A stretch of DNA of 64,000 nucleotides from Pelosinus sp. UFO1 (GTDB lineage Bacteria > Bacillota > Negativicutes > DSM-13327): the NCBI RefSeq assembly GCF_000725345.1, contig NZ_CP008852.1:434001-498000 (forward strand), in the 5' to 3' direction. The notes beneath the pieces are model-generated. The model did not search any database. It saw only the letters and a program-made list of their open reading frames with translations, and had not been told where the DNA came from. Of the stretch, positions 2,603 through 53,819 are shown one piece after another. Position numbers and translations under genes: made by a program. The first letter of the stretch is position 1, and each line of letters begins with the position of its first letter.

Positions 2603-4327
2603 ATGATAAAAACAGTTAATTGGAATTTTATCCAAGGGATGTGGCAGATTACTAAGGGCTATTGGATATCAGGGGAAAAATGGCGAGCTAGATTGTTGCT
2701 CGGTATCATTGTTGGCCTCAATCTAGGGCATGTTTATGTATTCGTATTGTTAAATGAATGGAATAATACATTTTATAACACCTTACAAAATCATGATAAA
2801 CCAGGCTTTGTTAGTGCTCTAGGTACCTTTTCTATACTAGCAACTTGTCATATTGTTTTGGCTGTTTATGAACTCTACATGCAGCAGCTCCTGGAAATTA
2901 AATGGCGTCGTTGGCTGACCCAAGAATACTTGCAAAAATGGCTGCAAAAAAGGTCTTATTATCGTATGCAATTAACGGATAATAGTACAGATAATCCTGA
3001 CCAACGAATTAGTGAGGATTTAAAGCTATTTGTTAATTTAACATTACGGCTTTCACTAGGATTGTTAAAAGCGACAGTTACTTTACTATCTTTTATTGCA
3101 ATATTATGGAACCTATCAGGCCCTTTTTCTATACCTTTAGGGGGAAATGATGTATCTATCCCCGGATATATGGTTTGGGTTGCTGTTATTTATGCTACAG
3201 TGGGCACATGGCTAACAGCGAAGATTGGGAATCCTTTAGTAGGCCTTACTTATAGCCAACAGCGTTATGAGGCTGACTTTCGTTTTAGTCTAATGCGTCT
3301 TAGAGAGAATAGTGAGAGTATTGCTCTTTATGGTGGTGAAAAGCAAGAACAAGATAATTTATCAAAGCGTTTTCACATGGTAGTGAATAACTTTAGAGAT
3401 TTAATGCTGCGGCAAAAGAAACTAACTTGGTTTACTTCTGGTTATTCTCAAATTGCTATTATCTTTCCTCTTGTTGTTGCAGCTCCGCGTTATTTTAGTA
3501 ATCAAATACAATTGGGAGGGCTAATGCAGATTTCATCAGCCTTTGGTCGCGTGCAGGATGCATTATCCTTTTTTGTGGAGAGTTATTCCTTATTCGCTGA
3601 ATGGCAAGCAGTCATTAATCGTCTAAACGGTTTTAGCAATAGTATAAACAAAGTACATTATATTTCTGAAAAAGAAAAGATTAAAGTAACTCATGGTGAA
3701 CATTTACCTTTTCAGGTTTCTCAATTACATATTAATTTGCCTAATGGCGAAAGATTACTTAAAAAATTAGACTTGACGATTAATAAAGGTGATTCTCTTT
3801 TAATTATGGGGCCATCTGGATGTGGGAAAAGTACTCTAATGCGAACATTGGCCGGTATTTGGCCATTTGGAGAAGGTAATATTACCATTCCAACAGAGAA
3901 GAAACTTTTATTTTTATCCCAGAAATCCTATTTGCCTCTTGGTACCCTACGGCAATCCTTATTATATCCTTACAACAATTCAGGATTTACCACTGATGAA
4001 AATATTCGTAAGGTCATGGCACTTTGTAAATTGAATGATCTTGCCGATAAATTAGATAAAGTTGAGGATTGGTCTCATATTCTTTCCTTAGGAGAACAAC
4101 AAAAGATCGCTTTTGTCAGAGCGATACTCCATCAACCCAATTGGTTGTTTTTAGATGAGGCAACATCCGCAATTGATGAAGCTACAGAAAAAGAATTATA
4201 CAAACTCTTACAAACCCATCTCAAAGATGCAGCTATTATTAGTGTTGGTCATCGAAGTACGTTGACAAACTATCATGCAAAAAAACTAGTGATAGACAAC
4301 ATAGGTAACTGGCGGCTAGATTCATAA
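2603..4327 (+). CDS. SbmA/BacA-like ABC transporter, fused permease and ATPase
   Basis: This is a 574-residue half-transporter with an N-terminal membrane domain (about residues 1-350, ABC_membrane_2/BacA type) and a C-terminal ATPase domain. The Walker A is GPSGCGKST, the degenerate signature is LSLGEQQ, and the Walker B is WLFLDEATSAID with a following His switch (VGHRST). This architecture matches YddA/Rv1819c-type proteins, which work as homodimers, and some family members take up cobalamin or peptides. Given the cobalamin-related genes elsewhere in the window, vitamin uptake is a possible role, but that is inference. It has its own upstream terminator and RBS (GAAAGGACG), so it is probably transcribed separately or with the ThiW-like gene 47 bp downstream. 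Confidence 0.83.
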   Translation: MIKTVNWNFIQGMWQITKGYWISGEKWRARLLLGIIVGLNLGHVYVFVLLNEWNNTFYNTLQNHDKPGFVSALGTFSILATCHIVLAVYELYMQQLLEIKWRRWLTQEYLQKWLQKRSYYRMQLTDNSTDNPDQRISEDLKLFVNLTLRLSLGLLKATVTLLSFIAILWNLSGPFSIPLGGNDVSIPGYMVWVAVIYATVGTWLTAKIGNPLVGLTYSQQRYEADFRFSLMRLRENSESIALYGGEKQEQDNLSKRFHMVVNNFRDLMLRQKKLTWFTSGYSQIAIIFPLVVAAPRYFSNQIQLGGLMQISSAFGRVQDALSFFVESYSLFAEWQAVINRLNGFSNSINKVHYISEKEKIKVTHGEHLPFQVSQLHINLPNGERLLKKLDLTINKGDSLLIMGPSGCGKSTLMRTLAGIWPFGEGNITIPTEKKLLFLSQKSYLPLGTLRQSLLYPYNNSGFTTDENIRKVMALCKLNDLADKLDKVEDWSHILSLGEQQKIAFVRAILHQPNWLFLDEATSAIDEATEKELYKLLQTHLKDAAIISVGHRSTLTNYHAKKLVIDNIGNWRLDS

Positions 4328-4374
4328 AAAGAATTTATGCTACTTATAGTAAGCCAAACTCTGGAGGAATTAGT

Positions 4375-4863
4375 ATGCAAGTACGAAAATTAGCATTTAC
4401 AGCTTTATTTATAGCCATAGGTGTTTTCTCAGCTCATTTGGTGTATATACCAATCGGTATTGCAAAGTGTTTTCCTGTACAGCATGCTATCAATGTGCTG
4501 TTAGCAGTGTTGATGGGGACAAGGTATTCCGTTAGTGCCGCCTTTAGTATTTCGCTCTTACGCAACATTCTTGGTACAGGCTCTTTGTTGGCTTTTCCGG
4601 GTAGTATGCTGGGGGCAGCCCTTGCAGGTATTTTGTATAAGAAGACGAATCATATTTTAGGAGCCATCGTTGGTGAGATTATTGGTACTGGAATTATAGG
4701 AAGCCTTGTAGCTTATCCTGTAGCAAAATATATACTTGGCTCTCAAGTAGGGGCATTCTTCTTCGTTCTTCCCTTCTTAGTTAGCACAACTGGTGGTAGT
4801 CTGATTGCTTATTTTCTATATCATACGCCGATGAAATCATTTTTTCACGAGAAAATAGGATAA
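4375..4863 (+). CDS. thiW: ECF transporter substrate-binding S component, ThiW-like
   Basis: This small integral membrane protein has 162 residues and about five or six hydrophobic helices. It begins with the typical S-component sequence RKLAFTALFIAIGVF and has conserved segments PIGIAKCFPVQHAINVL and AFPGSMLGAALAGI seen in ThiW. ThiW proteins are proposed to bind a thiamine precursor (hydroxyethylthiazole) and rely on a shared EcfAAT module, which is not encoded here. There is no TPP riboswitch signature upstream. The RBS is TGGAGGAATTAG before ATG 4375. The specificity assignment comes from family recognition, not from proof. Confidence 0.8.
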   Translation: MQVRKLAFTALFIAIGVFSAHLVYIPIGIAKCFPVQHAINVLLAVLMGTRYSVSAAFSISLLRNILGTGSLLAFPGSMLGAALAGILYKKTNHILGAIVGEIIGTGIIGSLVAYPVAKYILGSQVGAFFFVLPFLVSTTGGSLIAYFLYHTPMKSFFHEKIG

Positions 4864-4883
4864 ATATCGACGATTTATAACTA

Positions 4884-4921
4884 AAACTCCTGCAAAGTGA
4901 ATTGGCTTTGCAGGAGTTTTT
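4884..4921 (+). terminator. Rho-independent terminator
   Basis: A perfect stem AAAACTCCTGCAAAG / CTTTGCAGGAGTTTT with T-run lies directly after the thiW-like gene. Confidence 0.9.
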
Positions 4922-5018
4922 GATTAGCGAAAAGAAGGAACTGATACGGAATGAAAGCCTTCTAAAAGACTAGGAAATGATCTTAAAAATAGTAAATTGT
5001 AAAAGTAGGGGGAAGATT

Positions 5019-5909
5019 TTGGATATAAAAAATCTAGAATGTTTTATCGAAGTTGCCCGTTACAAAAGCTTTAGTAAGGCTGCTGAAATGATGTATATTT
5101 CACAGCCGTCCATCAGTAGAATGATTAAGGAGTTAGAAACACAATTTGGCGTAATGTTATGCTACCGAGATACAAAGTCCGTTAGATTAACGGATGCTGG
5201 CGAAATTATTCTTAGACAAGCACAACAAATTGTATCATCATTTCAAAGTATAACTGCCCAATTAGGGGATTTGAAGAAAATGCAAACTGGGAAAATACAT
5301 ATTGGAATACCTCAAATTACTGCGATTACAAGTTTTTCAAATTTGCTTAGTGCATTTAAGAATGAATACCCTAACATTTCTATTCATCTATATGAAGTTG
5401 GTCCGAAAAAAGTAGAAGCAGCAATTCAAGAGGGATCATTAGATATTGGAATATTCACGCCTTCTGAGGATGACGACCTTTATGAAAAAATTTGGTTTGA
5501 ACAAGATCCGCTTGAAGTAATTATGCACCCCACCAGTAGGTTGGCTCAATATAAGGTAATTGATTACAAGATGCTTATTGATGAAGAGTTTGTTTTATAT
5601 AGCAACGATTATAAGCTGCATGATATGATAATAGATGAATGCAAACATGCTGGTTTTAAGCCTAAGATCGTTCTAGAAACTTCACAACGGGATTGGATGA
5701 CGCAGATGGTAGCAGGAAACCTCGGTATCGCAATGCTGCCCAGCAAAATATGTAAAAGCTTTGATAATAAGGTTATTATACATCGCCCTCTTGAAGAGCC
5801 AAAATTATATTTGCGCCTGGCTCTAGTATGGAGAAAGGAGCGATATCTTTCTTACGCAGCCCTTGAATTTCTATCCTTTGTTAAAAACCAGCTGGCTAAG
5901 TCTGAATAA
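5019..5909 (+). CDS. LysR-family transcriptional regulator
   Basis: This is a 296-residue LysR regulator with an N-terminal winged helix (LDIKNLECFIEVARYKSF, SKAAEMMYISQPSISRMIKELE) and a C-terminal periplasmic-binding-like effector domain. I start it at TTG 5019 because AGGGGG at 5007-5012 is well placed, and the protein then begins at the usual family position. The longer frame adds 14 unsupported residues. No divergent partner gene is present, since both neighbours are on the plus strand, so the target is unknown. Confidence 0.85.
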   Translation: MDIKNLECFIEVARYKSFSKAAEMMYISQPSISRMIKELETQFGVMLCYRDTKSVRLTDAGEIILRQAQQIVSSFQSITAQLGDLKKMQTGKIHIGIPQITAITSFSNLLSAFKNEYPNISIHLYEVGPKKVEAAIQEGSLDIGIFTPSEDDDLYEKIWFEQDPLEVIMHPTSRLAQYKVIDYKMLIDEEFVLYSNDYKLHDMIIDECKHAGFKPKIVLETSQRDWMTQMVAGNLGIAMLPSKICKSFDNKVIIHRPLEEPKLYLRLALVWRKERYLSYAALEFLSFVKNQLAKSE

Positions 5910-5925
5910 AAATAGAGAAGTTGCA

Positions 5926-5956
5926 AAACCAAGCTTTCTAGCTTGGTTTATTTATT
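5926..5956 (+). terminator. Rho-independent terminator
   Basis: Stem AAACCAAGC / GCTTGGTTT with a 6-base loop followed by ATTTATTATT, just after the LysR stop codon. Confidence 0.75.
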
Positions 5957-6078
5957 ATCTAAATACACTAGATCCATAATAAGTATTTCACTAATTCTCT
6001 TATGATTATTAAAATAATCATATAACAGTGCTTTATTGAGATGTGTATTGCGCTTACATCAAAGGAGATTGATATTAT

Positions 6079-6255
6079 ATGAATGTGTCGGTCAAGCAGT
6101 TAAATAGAAAAATAATTGAGAATCAAAATTTGCAGGTTGATGATGAGGTTACCAACGATTTGAATAAAAGTGAATTGAAAAAAGAAACAAAGAAAAAACG
6201 AGTTCCTGATATAACTAGGCAAAAGTGGTTTTGGGATAACGCGGTACTATCCTAA
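6079..6255 (+). CDS. Small charged hypothetical protein (58 aa)
   Basis: This ORF of 58 codons starts at ATG 6079 behind AAAGGAG (6061-6067, spacing about 11) and stops at 6253-6255. The product starts MNVSVKQLNRKII, is rich in Lys, Glu, Asn and Asp (KSELKKETKKKR), and ends with a hydrophobic/aromatic stretch RQKWFWDNAVLS. I recognise no family. The Shine-Dalgarno site and a terminator on the upstream side make it a plausible gene. Its size and unusual composition leave real doubt. Confidence 0.45.
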   Translation: MNVSVKQLNRKIIENQNLQVDDEVTNDLNKSELKKETKKKRVPDITRQKWFWDNAVLS

Positions 6256-6593
6256 TCCGATAAGAGGGGAATACTTTTATTTCAATTGGTATAAATTAGT
6301 TACGATAAATGAATAAAGCACAAAAATGGCGTGAAAAATTGAGATGCACCTACAGGTGAGTTGGCAGGGACTATTGATAAACATATTGAATTAAATAAGA
6401 TAAGAGTGTATTGGGTGCTGCATATAAAGAAAGCCTGTAAATTTCCTAATTCAATAGAATGTCATTTGAAATCAATTGACAGCTGCTTTATTTCATATTT
6501 TTCGTGAAATAAATTTAAGTATTTGTAGTGCACAATCAGATCATCCTTTACAACAGTAATAGTACGTAATATATAATAGGAGATGGTTTAATA
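6256..6593 (+). other. Intergenic stretch without a supported gene
   Basis: There are only short open stretches here. One frame around 6338-6510 reads DAPTGELAGTIDKHIELNK and then degenerates. It has no start or RBS, and it may be a remnant of a lost gene. The last 50 bases hold the leader and RBS (TAGGAGATGG) of comB. Confidence 0.4.
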
Positions 6594-7307
6594 ATGAAAA
6601 TTGATATTGCATTTTTACCGAAAGACATTGGTGAGGTAAATCTTTCTGAGACTATTTGTATCGTATTAGATATATTTCGTGCAACTACATCGATTGTTAC
6701 TTCTATGGCAAACGGCTGCAAAGAAATGATCCCCGTTTTATCTGTAGAGGATGCTAGCCTGGCAGCTATTAAAATGGAATCTGCCTTGTTTGCTGGGGAG
6801 AGGCAGTCTATCAAAATTGAAGGATATGATTTTGGTAATTCTCCCTTTGAATTTTCTAAGGATAAGGTAGAGGGTCAAAGTATCGTTATGACTACCACGA
6901 ATGGAACGATTGCCATTAAGGCAACAGAAGGGGCACATCGTACATTGATTGGCTCTTGTCTAAATGCTACGGCTGTTTGTGGGCAGGCTAAAATTTATGG
7001 AAAAGATATTTTAATTGTATGTGCTGGAACAGATGGTCTTTTTTCGCTAGAAGATTCACTTTGTGCAGGATTATTGGTTCAGTTATTAACTGCAGAAGGT
7101 AATGCGTTACTAACAGATTCTGCTCGCGCAGCCTTGCTGATGTATATTCAGGCTAAAGATAAGCTAGTTGAGACTGCTGTTCATAGTAGAAATGGTAAAC
7201 GGCTAGAAGATTTAAACCGTATGGATGATGTAGAATATTGTTTTCAGATAGATGCACAACATATCGTACCAGAGTATCGACAGGGTAAAATTATCTTAGA
7301 GAAATAA
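6594..7307 (+). CDS. comB: 2-phosphosulfolactate phosphatase (ComB family)
   Basis: This is a 237-residue ComB-family protein (PF04029). Recognisable motifs are VLDIFRATTSIVTSM near the N-terminus, GERQSIKIEGYDFGNSP in the middle, and MTTTNGT, which are the acidic and Thr/Asn-rich active-site elements of the Mg-dependent phosphatase. In methanogens and some bacteria it converts phosphosulfolactate to sulfolactate on the way to coenzyme M or sulfolactate. No comA, comC or other sulfolactate gene is visible nearby, so the physiological substrate is uncertain. The RBS is AGGAGATGG before ATG 6594, and a strong terminator follows. Confidence 0.87.
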   Translation: MKIDIAFLPKDIGEVNLSETICIVLDIFRATTSIVTSMANGCKEMIPVLSVEDASLAAIKMESALFAGERQSIKIEGYDFGNSPFEFSKDKVEGQSIVMTTTNGTIAIKATEGAHRTLIGSCLNATAVCGQAKIYGKDILIVCAGTDGLFSLEDSLCAGLLVQLLTAEGNALLTDSARAALLMYIQAKDKLVETAVHSRNGKRLEDLNRMDDVEYCFQIDAQHIVPEYRQGKIILEK

Positions 7308-49907: not shown

Positions 49908-49925
49908 CATAGTATAATAATAATT

Positions 49926-50092
49926 CTTCGTTAGGTGAGGCTCCTGCATAAACATAGGCCACTGCCCGGAAATGTCGAGAGACGCCAATGGGTAGAACAG
50001 GTACTACCGGATTAAGGTTTTACTTAAGGTGGCTGAGTGATTTGGGTTTGTACTCTACGTTATGCAGTGCCAAAACTCGTACGAGTGAGGAA
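49926..50092 (+). promoter_or_regulatory. M-box (ykoK) Mg2+ riboswitch, copy 1
   Basis: The sequence shows the M-box hallmarks in order: CTTCGTTAGGTGAGGCTCCT, ACATAGGCCACTGCCCGGAA, TGTCGAGAGACGCCAATGGG, and near the 3' end TCTACGTTATGCAGTGCCAAA. M-boxes fold when Mg2+ is high and then let the downstream terminator form. A stem at 50120-50143 (AAGCC..GGCTT) with a T-rich tract is its likely terminator. A second, nearly identical aptamer follows. Confidence 0.93.
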
Positions 50093-50119
50093 GGTGTGAA
50101 TGTATTTAGTTCGCTTATT

Positions 50120-50157
50120 AAGCCTTCCGGCAAGGGGGGCTTTATCTATTTTTTTAT
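50120..50157 (+). terminator. Expression-platform terminator of M-box copy 1
   Basis: Stem AAGCCTTCC / GGGGGGCTT with TATCTATTTTTTTATTT downstream. Confidence 0.78.
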
Positions 50158-50233
50158 TTAGTAAAGAATACGACCGTGGTACTGCATAGAATAATAGGGC
50201 AACAGGTACTTAGAATTATATAATATGGAACTT

Positions 50234-50396
50234 CTTCGTTAGGTGAGGCTCCTGTATGAACATAGGCCATTGCCCGGAAACGTCGAAAGACGCCAATGGG
50301 TAGAACAGGTATTACCGAATTAAGGTTTTACTTAAGATGGCTGAGGTTGTTTTGACCTCTACGTTATGCAGTGCCAAAGCTCAACGATTGGGGAAG
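50234..50396 (+). promoter_or_regulatory. M-box (ykoK) Mg2+ riboswitch, copy 2
   Basis: It shares nearly all positions with copy 1 (CTTCGTTAGGTGAGGCTCCT, GCCATTGCCCGGAAACGTCG, ACGCCAATGGGTAGAACAGG, CTCTACGTTATGCAGTGCCA). A terminator follows at 50425-50458. The GAAGGTC at about 50393-50399 can pair with GACCTTC of the terminator arm, giving an antiterminator. It directly controls the Mg2+ transport genes. Confidence 0.93.
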
Positions 50397-50424
50397 GTCG
50401 TAGTAATAGCATCATGGTGACATG

Positions 50425-50458
50425 AAAGACCTTCTTATAGACGATAAGAGGTCTTTTT
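50425..50458 (+). terminator. Expression-platform terminator of M-box copy 2
   Basis: Stem AAAGACCTTCTTAT / ATAAGAGGTCTTT followed by TTAT. Confidence 0.82.
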
Positions 50459-50608: not shown

Positions 50609-51898
50609 ATGAATGAAGTGAAAATGTTAGGCGAATTTTATTTCAGCCAACTAATCGGTCAGCCGATTGATGATGTAACGGGCAATAATATTGGCCGGAT
50701 TAAAGATATAGCAGTACGTTGGGATGGGGTTTATCCACGGGTAATTGGTATTAAATATGCAAAAAAAATACACAATCTAATCCCCATTGATCTCGTTGAA
50801 CTTTACGAAGGGCATAGGGTAAAGCTTGTGGGGACGTTTTCGCCAGAACAAACAATTCCTTTACATGATAATGATATTTATGCCAGTAAATGGTTATTGG
50901 ATAAACAGATTATTGATCTAAAGGGCTCAAAAATGGTAAGGGTAAATGACATTATTTTATCATGGGTGGTACAAGAAGAACGGCAACTCATGGTATTACT
51001 AGCGGTCGATATTGGAGTGCGTGGCTTATTTAGGCGTTTAGGGTTGGAATTTTTATTCAAGAAGTTTAAACAAAATTGGTTAGTTTTAGAATATATCAAA
51101 CCCTTGGAAAGTTGGAATTCCAATCTGCAGTTAAATCGTGTAAAACAGCAATTGACAGAATTGCACCCTGCTGATATTGCTGATTTAATCGAAGAGATGG
51201 ATTATAAACGCCGGGCAAACTTCATGGATAGTTTAGATGTACAGCAGACCATTGATACGTTAGCAGAAATGAACCTGGATACACAGGTGGAAATTATTGA
51301 ACAAATGGATGCCCAACGAGCTTCTGATATTTTAGAAGAGATGCCACCAGATGAAGCAGCTGATATTCTAGCAGAGTTGCCTACGGAGAAATCTGAAGGA
51401 TTACTTAGCTTAATGGAAACTGATGATGCTGAGGATGTAAGGGAACTCATGCAATATGAGCAAGGTACTGCTGGGGCCTTGATGACGAATGAATTTATCT
51501 CTTTTTCGTCACAAATTACAGCAGAAGAAGCAATCAATCAATTACGAGAATTGTCGCCAACGGCAGAAACGATTTATTATCTATATGTTATGAACGATGA
51601 TGAACATCTTCAGGGGGTTCTTTCCTTGCGGGAGCTAATTGTAGCTGCACCTCATACTACATTAGAAGCTTTAATGCACACGAAAGTTGCTGTAGTAAAA
51701 GATGAAGATAATTACCAACGTGTGGCAGAGGTAATAAACAAATATAGTTTACTTGCAGTACCCGTTGTGAATGAAAATGATGTTATGCTAGGAATTGTAA
51801 CGGTAGATGATATTCTTGATATTCTAATGCCAGAGCGTGGCAAACTGGACACATACTCCTGGTTTGCATTGAGTAAGATGGCAGGACGGGGGCGATAA
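50609..51898 (+). CDS. Soluble PRC-barrel / MgtE_N / CBS protein, Mg2+ sensor-like
   Basis: This 429-residue protein has a PRC-barrel-like N-terminus (about residues 8-170, GQPIDDVTGNNIGRIKDIAV), an MgtE_N superhelix (about 175-290, repeats of ELHPADIADLIEEM and LEEMPPDEAADILAELP) and a CBS pair (about 295-420). The five-helix MgtE channel is missing, so it is cytosolic. The MgtE_N-CBS module of MgtE senses Mg2+ and gates the pore. Here it is two bases ahead of an NRAMP-like transporter gene, so it probably gates or regulates that protein. The operon lies behind two M-box riboswitches. Confidence 0.9.
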   Translation: MNEVKMLGEFYFSQLIGQPIDDVTGNNIGRIKDIAVRWDGVYPRVIGIKYAKKIHNLIPIDLVELYEGHRVKLVGTFSPEQTIPLHDNDIYASKWLLDKQIIDLKGSKMVRVNDIILSWVVQEERQLMVLLAVDIGVRGLFRRLGLEFLFKKFKQNWLVLEYIKPLESWNSNLQLNRVKQQLTELHPADIADLIEEMDYKRRANFMDSLDVQQTIDTLAEMNLDTQVEIIEQMDAQRASDILEEMPPDEAADILAELPTEKSEGLLSLMETDDAEDVRELMQYEQGTAGALMTNEFISFSSQITAEEAINQLRELSPTAETIYYLYVMNDDEHLQGVLSLRELIVAAPHTTLEALMHTKVAVVKDEDNYQRVAEVINKYSLLAVPVVNENDVMLGIVTVDDILDILMPERGKLDTYSWFALSKMAGRGR

Positions 51899-51900
51899 AA

Positions 51901-53175
51901 ATGGTTATGATAAAAGATATGCGCAAAAGATTAGGACTATTCATGGCAGTAATGGGACCTGGAATTGTTACAGCCTTTGCCGATAATGATGCAGGTGGTA
52001 TTGCTACTTATGCTGCTGCGGGAGCAAAGTATGGGTATGGGTTATTATTTGTTGTGTTGATCAGCAGCATTTGTTTAGCGATTGCTCAAGAAATATCAGC
52101 GCGGACGGGGGCTGTTACAGGACGTGGTTTGTCCGATTTAATTCGAGAGTTGTTTGGTGTTAAGTGGACGTTTTTTGCGATGAGCGTACTGTTGGTTGCT
52201 AATATTGGTACTACGGCTTCTGAGTTTTCCGGTATTGCTACTAGTTTTGAAATTTTTGGTGTTAGTAAATATATAGCGGTGCCTACGATGGCGATACTCG
52301 TCTGGTGGTTAGTTCTTAAAGCGGATTATGGGAAGATAGAAAAGATCTTTCTTGTATTGTGTGCCACCTTCTTTAGTTATGTGGTTTCAGGCTTTATCGT
52401 AAATCCTCCGTGGGGAGAGGTTTTAATTGCTTCTGTTACTCCTTCATTTTCTCCTAAGGCGGATTATTTAATCATGGCCATTGGTGTAATTGGCACTACC
52501 ATTACACCCTGGGGTCAGTTTTATGTTCAAGCATCCGTTGTCGATAAAGGAATTACTGCTGAAGACTATAAATATACTTTCTGGGATGTTATGTTTGGGG
52601 CTTTTTTTACTTGGTTGATTGCCTTCTTTATCATCGTAGCAACAGCAGCTACCTTATTTACGAATCAAATTTCTATTGAAACGGTGAAAGATGCGGCAAT
52701 GGCATTGAAGCCATTAGCTGGTGAGTATGCAAGCATGCTGTTCTCCTTTGGTCTATTAGGAGCTTCTATGCTGGCAGCCTTTATTTTACCACTGAGTACC
52801 GCTTATGCTGTTTGTGAGGCTTTAGGTTTTGAACGTGGCGTTAGTAAAACCTATAAAGAAGCTCCTGCTTTTTTTAGCTTATATACCGCTTTAATTGTGA
52901 TTGGTGCAGGATTAGTACTATGGCCGGATTTGTCTCTCTATCAAGTAATGATTACCTCTCAAGTAGTAAATGGTATGTTATTACCTCCGATTCTTATTTT
53001 TATGGTTCTTATTGCTAGTAATAAAAATATTATGGGCGGCTATGTGAATGCTCCTTGGTACAATATGGTTTCTTGGGCGTTTACTCTTGTATTGATTCTA
53101 TTAACCTTACTTTTATTAGCTACTACGCTGATGCCTGAACTTATGGATGCGGTGATGGGATATTTCGGGTTATAA
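51901..53175 (+). CDS. NRAMP-related Mg2+ transporter (NRMT type)
   Basis: This 424-residue LeuT-fold transporter has about eleven helices. Classical NRAMPs carry DPGN in helix 1 and a Met-containing MPH motif in helix 6, which select Mn2+ and Fe2+. Here helix 1 reads AFADNDAGGIATYAA (residues 25-39) and helix 6 reads GTTITPWGQFYVQAS, so both signatures are replaced and the Met ligand is absent. This pattern is known from NRMT proteins, NRAMP relatives that import Mg2+ and in Clostridium lie behind an M-box. The tandem M-boxes here agree with Mg2+ uptake. It probably works with the CBS protein encoded upstream. Confidence 0.9.
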   Translation: MVMIKDMRKRLGLFMAVMGPGIVTAFADNDAGGIATYAAAGAKYGYGLLFVVLISSICLAIAQEISARTGAVTGRGLSDLIRELFGVKWTFFAMSVLLVANIGTTASEFSGIATSFEIFGVSKYIAVPTMAILVWWLVLKADYGKIEKIFLVLCATFFSYVVSGFIVNPPWGEVLIASVTPSFSPKADYLIMAIGVIGTTITPWGQFYVQASVVDKGITAEDYKYTFWDVMFGAFFTWLIAFFIIVATAATLFTNQISIETVKDAAMALKPLAGEYASMLFSFGLLGASMLAAFILPLSTAYAVCEALGFERGVSKTYKEAPAFFSLYTALIVIGAGLVLWPDLSLYQVMITSQVVNGMLLPPILIFMVLIASNKNIMGGYVNAPWYNMVSWAFTLVLILLTLLLLATTLMPELMDAVMGYFGL

Positions 53176-53249
53176 AGAAATTATATTAGGAGCTGCTAAC
53201 CTATCTATGCAAATGGATGGCAAATATAAACGCAGGAGGAATAGAAAAA

Positions 53250-53819
53250 ATGTTTTATGATTTAGTTGTTTCCAATCGATCTTATCGTCGTTTTTATGAA
53301 GAACATAGCATATCCGAGGGCAGATTGCTTGAACTTGTGAATTATGGTAGGTTATCTGCTTCGGGAGCTAACAAACAGCCATTGAAATACATTATCTCTA
53401 GCGATAAAGAGAAAAATCAAATCATTTTCCCTCATTTATTATGGGCTGGATACCTAAAAGATTGGTCCGGACCTAAAGAAGGGGAGAGGCCTTCCGGTTA
53501 CATTATTATTCTTCAAGATAAGAAGATTGGCACAAGTGGCGTAGATCATGGAATTGCAGCCCAAAGTATTTTGCTAGGTGCACGCTCGATGGATTTAGGT
53601 GGGTGTATGATCCAAAGCATTAAGCGTGATGAATTACAGACGGCGCTACATATTCCAGATCAATATGAAATCTTACTGGTTTTGGCTTTAGGTAAACCGA
53701 AAGAAGTAGTTATCATTGAAGAAATTGAAGAAGGTGAAGATATAAAATACTGGCGTGATGAAAGGCAAGAGCATCATGTGCCGAAGCGTAAGATGAAAGA
53801 TGTAGTTTTAACGTTATAA
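53250..53819 (+). CDS. Nitroreductase-family flavoprotein
   Basis: This 189-residue FMN-dependent oxidoreductase begins MFYDLVVSNRSYRRFYEEHSI and has the FMN-binding NYGRLSASGANKQPLKYII and ARSMDLGGCMIQSIKRDEL segments of the nitroreductase fold. ATG 53250 has AGGAGG nine bases upstream; the upstream frame is not supported. The cofactor donor and substrate are unknown. It may be cotranscribed with the Mg2+ transporter, since there is no terminator in the 74-bp gap. Structured repeat copy 3 begins at its stop codon. Confidence 0.87.
   Translation: MFYDLVVSNRSYRRFYEEHSISEGRLLELVNYGRLSASGANKQPLKYIISSDKEKNQIIFPHLLWAGYLKDWSGPKEGERPSGYIIILQDKKIGTSGVDHGIAAQSILLGARSMDLGGCMIQSIKRDELQTALHIPDQYEILLVLALGKPKEVVIIEEIEEGEDIKYWRDERQEHHVPKRKMKDVVLTL

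Follow-up and report, generated by a model that had tools for sequence, protein, structure and literature searches.

A channel-less MgtE-type sensor encoded beside an NRMT transporter and behind tandem M-box riboswitches in Pelosinus sp. UFO1, a candidate trans-acting Mg2+ gate

A probable Mg2+-uptake locus in Pelosinus sp. UFO1

The window analysed here (the whole stretch of 64,000 nucleotides between positions 434,001 and 498,000 of NZ_CP008852.1, the one 5.1 Mb contig to which all genome-wide statements refer) carries two genes on the forward strand, 2 nt apart, which encode a soluble protein related to the cytoplasmic sensor of the Mg2+ channel MgtE (hereafter the accessory) and an Nramp-related Mg2+ transporter (NRMT or NrmT). 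Both open reading frames have the extents given in an earlier note on this DNA, and two M-box riboswitches precede them (Table 1). As judged from its sequence, the locus is an NrmT Mg2+-uptake operon, and its accessory may close the transporter in trans. Close named relatives are also Pelosinus, with accessories that are 83-84% identical (L003, L004 and L005; handles in L denote loci and those in G genomes).

Table 1. Features of the accessory-NRMT operon and its leader, in window coordinates.
Feature	Position	Strand	Evidence
M-box aptamer, copy 1	49920..50096	+	RF00380, 165.4 bits, E 3.2e-38, full model 1-169
Intrinsic terminator of copy 1	50120..50142	+	terminator scan; fold -13.7 kcal/mol
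M-box aptamer, copy 2	50228..50399	+	RF00380, 159.0 bits, E 1.6e-36, full model 1-169
Terminator hairpin of copy 2, followed by a T-run	50426..50455	+	fold -16.9 kcal/mol; script-picked
Accessory sensor, 429 aa (double PRC barrel, MgtE_N, CBS pair, no channel)	50609..51898	+	
Tandem PRC-type barrels, residues about 5-73 and 89-160	50621..51088	+	alignment A1, hhalign, AF2, CdpB 8qzo
MgtE_N (185-285) and CBS pair (288-406)	51161..51826	+	Pfam, AF2, 2yvy superposition
NRMT-type Nramp transporter, 424 aa	51901..53175	+	Pfam Nramp, 7qia, tree
Helix 1 DxxG, D30-G33 (EleNRMT D55/G58)	51988..51999	+	
Helix 6 TxxT, T199-T202 (T199 = EleNRMT T224)	52495..52506	+	

The accessory contains an MgtE-type sensor module without the channel, as the earlier note had recognized. 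Pfam MgtE_N (E 1.5e-27) is followed by two CBS stretches (E 8.9e-17), while profile searches with the channel domain PF01769 gave no match in the protein or elsewhere in the genome, and the TIGR00400 mgtE model covers residues 173-421 only, scoring under its cut-off. The MgtE_N-CBS part superposes on the cytosolic domain of TtMgtE (2yvy; Z 24.8, rmsd 2.3, 232 aligned residues), and its CBS pair resembles those of the nucleotide-binding proteins DarB, OpuCA and AcuB among the fold matches listed. In a tree of this part, the accessories split from MgtE channels with 99/99 support and in 98% of bootstraps. Since they occupy a single branch, they look like one family and not like the products of repeated recent breakage of MgtEs (alignments A2 and A3 were made without L040, and A3 holds a chosen 40 of the 62 listed accessories). 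The tails after the CBS pair are mostly basic; that they have a membrane role is a guess.

The earlier note had further described a PRC barrel, and this fold is indeed present, although in two copies instead of one. The protein's own PRC score (19.2 bits) lies under the Pfam cut-off (21.2), while 36 of 40 accessory family members match at E <= 0.01, the best at 4.5e-12. Compared with hhalign, the two barrels match each other (probability 92, E 6.4e-7), and neither matches MgtE_N as a profile. The N-terminal ~170 residues, modelled alone with AlphaFold2 (AF2), reach a pLDDT of 88.6, and their top fold match among those listed is the CdpB complex 8qzo (Z 13.5, rmsd 2.4, 134 aligned), further PRC-type proteins in the same list scoring Z <= 7.8. 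From these models, the accessory N-terminus is predicted to be two PRC-type barrels. CdpB1/CdpB2 likewise have two PRC barrels per chain, but they are archaeal, share 13% identity with the accessory, and leave its sensor module outside the match. Most invariant columns of alignment A1 fall within the second barrel, in LLDKQIVDxxGxKVVRVNDI (motif DKQ..D..G.K.VRVND).

The transporter belongs to Pfam Nramp (E 4.4e-100), and its nearest solved relative is 7qia (E 2.2e-110, 46% identity over the aligned part), which we take to be EleNRMT. The residue numbers of 7qia agree with those of PMC8806188, where the NRMT signature is given as DxxG-TxxA/T. The motifs DNDAGG (D30-G33) in helix 1 and TTIT (T199-T202) in helix 6, at the two places that the earlier note had singled out (helix 6 there as TITPWG), fit this signature, and DxxG and TxxA/T are found in 30 of 30 tabulated accessory-linked transporters, a set that omits the L066 NRMT because its gene runs over two frames. 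The residues D55, G58, T224 and Q379 of EleNRMT, probed by mutation in PMC8806188, correspond to D30, G33, T199 and Q354 here and are all identical. Eight remote Nramps carry DxxS-AxxM (five), DxxS-AxxT (one), DxxG-TxxA (one, L073) or DxxA-TxxA (one, L124), and a tree places 26 accessory-linked rows and EleNRMT on one side, with 99/99 support, against these eight and 10ky on the other; four near-copies were omitted from it, and the tool warned of long branches meeting. Motif, tree position next to EleNRMT and the two M-boxes back the earlier assignment to the NRMT-type Mg2+ transporters. EleNRMT carries Mg2+ without H+ coupling, and also Mn2+ (PMC8806188), and in the accessible parts of that paper it is studied alone, without an accessory partner. 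Based on the 46% identity, the key residues and the M-boxes, the window transporter is inferred to be an uncoupled Mg2+ uniporter. A nitroreductase-family protein is encoded ~40 nt 3' of the NRMT gene (53217-53819) and possibly shares its transcript.

The two Mg2+ riboswitches upstream of the accessory, absent from the earlier note, both exceed the RF00380 gathering score of 44 bits and are the only M-boxes in the genome. An antiterminator could form in each: the aptamer 3' edge GGAAGG pairs with CCUUCC of the terminator 5' arm in copy 1 (-14.3 kcal/mol), and GAAGGUC with GACCUUC in copy 2 (-15.5 kcal/mol), the terminator and antiterminator folds of both copies being computed values without a shuffle control. 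A consensus terminator scan returned three rows, all at the first hairpin, versus a shuffled mean of 0.5, and did not list the second hairpin. Terminator-like hairpins follow 8 of 8 M-boxes in four Pelosinus loci, as picked by a script without a shuffle control. On this predicted pairing, the arrangement is that of an OFF switch.

Both M-box copies are kept in the four Pelosinus loci, the window included. Between the loci, identity is 95-99% for copy 1 and 91-99% for copy 2, while the two copies share 84-86% with each other (85% within each locus). Copies are thus more alike between loci than within a locus, which indicates that the duplication is older than these Pelosinus species. In a 120-genome sample of the class, 45 genomes have an M-box, and a search for tandem M-boxes with stricter filters found closely spaced copies in 7 of the 8 genomes from the genus (counting UFO1) and in a single genome from a different family, G350. 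The G350 pair (L124, 2385-2812, copies 78 nt apart) lies before a divergent Nramp (3011-4324; motifs DNDAGA and TTIA) that lacks an adjoining accessory, and represents a second lineage of tandem M-boxes. No tandem was seen at 29 M-box loci examined outside Pelosinus. The L055 locus starts at a contig end 67 bases 5' of its M-box, so that a second copy upstream could be missed there. No earlier report of tandem M-boxes was found in the literature searched, from which subscription papers were mostly absent; the accessible part of one riboswitch paper gives the tandem arrangement for glycine switches alone.

Other Mg2+-linked loci were recorded as well. CorA matches occur at two places in the UFO1 genome, one of them (G000:C1:4741777-4742642; L007, L009) as two pieces in different frames (233 and 145 aa), which a split gene or a sequencing error may explain. 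Three genomes of the genus (G393, G385 and G372; L125, L126 and L127) have a single M-box upstream of a 580-aa double ABC permease (NitT/TauT/ProW-like), followed in L125 and L127 by a 426-aa ATPase, for which the stretch fetched at L126 is too short. From its gene order this is possibly an M-box-controlled ABC importer; the UFO1 genome has weak partial matches to it only.

Pairing of the accessory with NRMT

The association between the two genes was evaluated in a 299-genome panel of the phylum, in which a search with NRMT (E <= 1e-50) retrieved 35 Nramp matches in 29 genomes, with about 4 kb upstream fetched where the contig allowed. Twenty-eight are close NRMTs (about 49% identity or more; 27 genomes, 20 genera) and seven are remote (31-33%). 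The accessory lies directly upstream of 28/28 close NRMTs, the window's own included, versus 0/7 remote Nramps. Searched with its PRC part, the accessory occurs 31 times in 28 genomes: 28 copies by an NRMT, one at a contig end (L075), one alone (L074) and one before a KimA-type gene (L076). A profile built largely from these 31 recovers the same 31, and this second search is accordingly partly circular. Intergenic distances at 29 loci range from -14 to 91 nt (median 18, six overlapping), and an M-box precedes 20 of the 27 other panel NRMT loci. No fusion of the two genes was detected, the open frames of the 35 Nramp matches spanning 336-489 aa. The L040 accessory lies in two frames, possibly through a sequencing error. 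Plasmids gave no match to the PRC part, although a diverged accessory-NRMT pair is present on an Alicyclobacillus plasmid; in viral contigs, 42 pattern matches included no relative.

A second panel, consisting of 45 genomes of the family of G003, yielded 39 profile matches in 34 genomes. Three accessories at contig ends (one in G339, two in G307) could not be decided, and 29 of the 36 that could have NRMT directly downstream. Three genomes (G334, G299 and G300) each yielded a single accessory and a single close NRMT, at separate places. The unlinked NRMTs keep the signature, have their own M-box (3/3) and no accessory beside them, and the unlinked accessory has an M-box in G299 and G300, none being found in G334. 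As G299 and G300 are of one genus and G334 of another, these are few independent events. The unlinked genes would still share a Mg2+ regulon, which is what one would expect of a partner that works in trans; they equally show an accessory that does not need its neighbour, a point that returns below.

Accessory genes also occur in other settings. At L133 and L134 (G299, G300) and L131 and L132 (G334, G335), the accessory is upstream of pfkA and a glucose-6-phosphate isomerase gene, with an M-box upstream in L133 and L134 only. L074 (G155) has an M-box (3261-3426) and an accessory (3631-4932) with no NRMT beside it, in a genome with two other complete accessory-NRMT operons. At L136 (G307), an M-box (1779-1946) and an mgtC-family gene (2281-2979) precede the start of an accessory (3118-3465) cut by the contig end. 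At L076 (G003), an accessory paralog without an M-box (3523-4776) is followed after 186 nt by the gene of a KimA-type K+ transporter (4963-6909). A general accessory-KimA pairing was considered and rejected (1 of 31 panel accessories).

Mg2+ and nucleotide sites of the sensor module

Conservation of the sensor sites was compared between accessories and MgtE channels, with D214, E216, A223 and E255 of TtMgtE included as positions presumably of interest. Other TtMgtE positions are those assigned to Mg4 (D91/D247), Mg5 (D226/D250), Mg6 (D95), Mg7 (E59), Mg2 (E258) and Mg3 (D259) in PMC5882242. The accessory residues D216, D248, D252 and D401 correspond to E59, D91, D95 and D247. Among 35 accessory rows, which include near-copies and omit the N-terminal fragment of the frame-split L040, D91 and D95 are kept in 35 each, and D247 and an acid at E59 in 34 each. 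Mostly lost, by comparison, are D214 (8/35), E216 (7/35), D226 (9/35) and an acid at E255 (11/35, two rows being gapped there). In the 13 MgtE channels compared, which are from the same phylum (15 loci had been fetched, but L086 and L088 gave no suitable frame), D214 is kept in 12, E216 in 13, D226 in 12 and E255 in 12, with D95 in 8. The plug motif [ST]ED is found in none of the accessory tails versus 13/13 MgtE tails. The same pattern was recovered with 25 non-redundant accessories and 10 MgtEs, the difference at D250 not being significant.

Overall, the accessory resembles MgtE (2yvy, 2zy9, 5x9g) in its superposable N domain and CBS pair with D91, D95 and D247 kept, and differs in having two extra PRC barrels, no channel, no acidic plug and few of D214, E216 and D226. 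Retention of the Mg2+-binding N/CBS part together with loss of the plug-facing part is as expected of a sensor that addresses another partner.

The ATP contacts of TtMgtE are also well represented in the accessories (Y170 35/35, R187 35/35, an acid at D188 34/35), compared with 1/13, 10/13 and 5/13 in the MgtE channels. These contacts have been described as highly conserved among MgtEs in PMC5529423, a conservation that the 13 panel MgtEs do not reproduce for Y170 and D188.

A proposed gate and its alternatives

Under the proposed mechanism, high cytoplasmic Mg2+ would cause the two serial M-box OFF switches to end transcription, as expected from their family, and the series would lower the leak and perhaps steepen the response. 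Driven by the membrane potential, an uncoupled uniporter would nevertheless go on importing Mg2+ until it was closed. MgtE is passive too, and is closed by its own cytoplasmic sensor. If NRMT is likewise passive, taking the accessory as its closing signal is the economical reading. The accessory would then act in trans, as a version of the cytoplasmic MgtE sensor that has become separate and soluble, and would dock on NRMT from the cytoplasmic side, with the double PRC barrel as the probable contact. Mg2+ filling the acidic cluster between the N domain and the CBS pair (D216, D248, D252, D401) would compact the accessory and hold NRMT shut, and a nucleotide input at the CBS pair is possible. 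Since the acidic plug is gone, and D214, E216 and D226 (TtMgtE numbering) mostly so, the signal would have to exit by a surface other than in MgtE. Such a gate is plausible because of the 28/28 adjacency, the selective retention of the Mg2+ sites and the three genomes with unlinked pairs. Taken whole, with transcription stopped by the M-boxes at high Mg2+ and a trans-acting cytoplasmic sensor closing NRMT through a putative docking contact, this reading is given a probability of about 58%.

Part of this picture is not new. The earlier note had presented it as a new way to control Mg2+ uptake, a claim of novelty that does not hold, as Shin et al. 2014 (PMC4072509) had already reported that a gene for the MgtE cytoplasmic domain adjoins most NrmT loci, with M-box control, and had speculated on cytoplasmic feedback by its product. 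Their operons agree with the present one in gene order, M-box control, MgtE cytoplasmic homology and the feedback hypothesis, and two separate genes make up the C. acetobutylicum accessory (PMC4072509). The PRC barrels, the site-by-site conservation, the tandem M-boxes and the unlinked pairs go unmentioned in the accessible parts of that paper. As far as the literature search reaches, what appears to be new is the doubling of the PRC barrel, the pattern of kept and lost sites, the counts from the genome panels, the accessory and NRMT genes found apart, and the M-boxes in tandem; that search, with subscription papers mostly outside it, also found no test of the role of the accessory later than 2014.

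Several observations weigh against a gate. The NrmT proteins of C. acetobutylicum are functional in B. subtilis without an accessory, co-expression of the Acidobacterium capsulatum accessory, the sole such test, gave no further rescue, and the A. capsulatum transporter linked to it restored Mn2+ uptake (all PMC4072509). The co-expression assay scored improved growth at limiting Mg2+ (PMC4072509), which a closing gate would not bring about, and its outcome is therefore no refutation. M-boxes are missing from 7 of the 27 other panel NRMT loci, and M-box-controlled Nramp relatives occur with no adjoining accessory (L073, L124). Within the second panel, 7 of 36 decidable accessories have no adjoining NRMT: one precedes spore_YtaF (G336, L130), four precede pfkA and then pgi (G334, G335, G299, G300), one precedes KimA (G003:C4) and one is alone (G155). 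For G335 and G336 (83% and 78% complete), no NRMT was found in the genome. The KimA-type transporter of L076, a single case, matches 6s3k at E 3.9e-110. The unlinked pairs belong here as well. A mirror-tree correlation of r 0.69 (25 loci), calculated with no species-tree control, is not taken as proof of co-evolution, the full-length accessory model is moderate (AF2 pLDDT 77, pTM 0.47), and the MgtE ATP site is partly kept.

The ATP-contact counts given above speak for the strongest competing explanation, itself rather unlikely, by which the accessory assists the assembly, stability or membrane placing of NRMT and its CBS pair senses a nucleotide (ATP, ADP or c-di-AMP) and not Mg2+. The concentration of invariant residues in the second PRC barrel, the likeness of the CBS pair to DarB, OpuCA and AcuB, and CdpB as top fold match among those listed would all suit such a partner. 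In the H subunits of reaction centres, PRC barrels are located on membrane complexes. However, the Mg2+-site residues D91, D95 and D247 are equally strictly kept, the window protein has Leu and His in place of the adenine contacts F227 and N203, and M-box control links the accessory to Mg2+.

It appears less probable still that the accessory has targets other than NRMT, such as further transporters or metabolism, and that in many cases the two are just co-regulated. The seven lone accessories of the second panel would fit this idea (four before pfkA-pgi, L130 before spore_YtaF, L076 before KimA, and L074 alone with its own M-box), as would the M-box-mgtC-accessory order at the contig end of L136. 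Nonetheless, five of the seven genomes hold a close NRMT elsewhere and the other two are incomplete, and the L074 accessory is 91% identical to that of L101, which has its NRMT.

That the accessory buffers Mg2+ or, as a metal chaperone, receives the ions that the transporter brings in, an alternative role named in PMC4072509 and compatible with the conserved acidic cluster, seems very improbable, given that cellular Mg2+ of about 0.5-2 mM leaves hardly any need for a chaperone (PMC4072509) and that the PRC barrels and CBS pair would be left unexplained. Transport chiefly of Mn2+ or Fe2+, to which the A. capsulatum homologue (PMC4072509) and Mn2+ movement by EleNRMT (PMC8806188) might point, has the smallest chance of all in view of the two M-boxes, the helix 6 Met to Thr change, DxxG in 30/30 transporters and the C. 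acetobutylicum proteins, which are reported to be incapable of Mn2+ import (PMC4072509).

Returning to the sensor gate, its more general form, tentatively proposed and with slightly less than an even chance, is that a freed MgtE sensor has become a trans regulatory subunit of the LeuT-fold NRMT through a double PRC barrel, would use the Mg2+ sites of its N domain and CBS pair without the plug route of MgtE, and is either operon-borne or, in some genomes, unlinked under its own M-box. The conserved sites and the double barrel supply point mutants and a docking module with which this can be tested, and the unlinked pairs are natural comparisons. With the tandem M-boxes, nature provides an example in which the benefit of doubling a switch that answers to one ion can be studied. 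If the proposal is true, the window operon, with its two serial M-boxes, would place uptake under three stacked Mg2+ controls, and a passive transporter can borrow its sensor from another fold.

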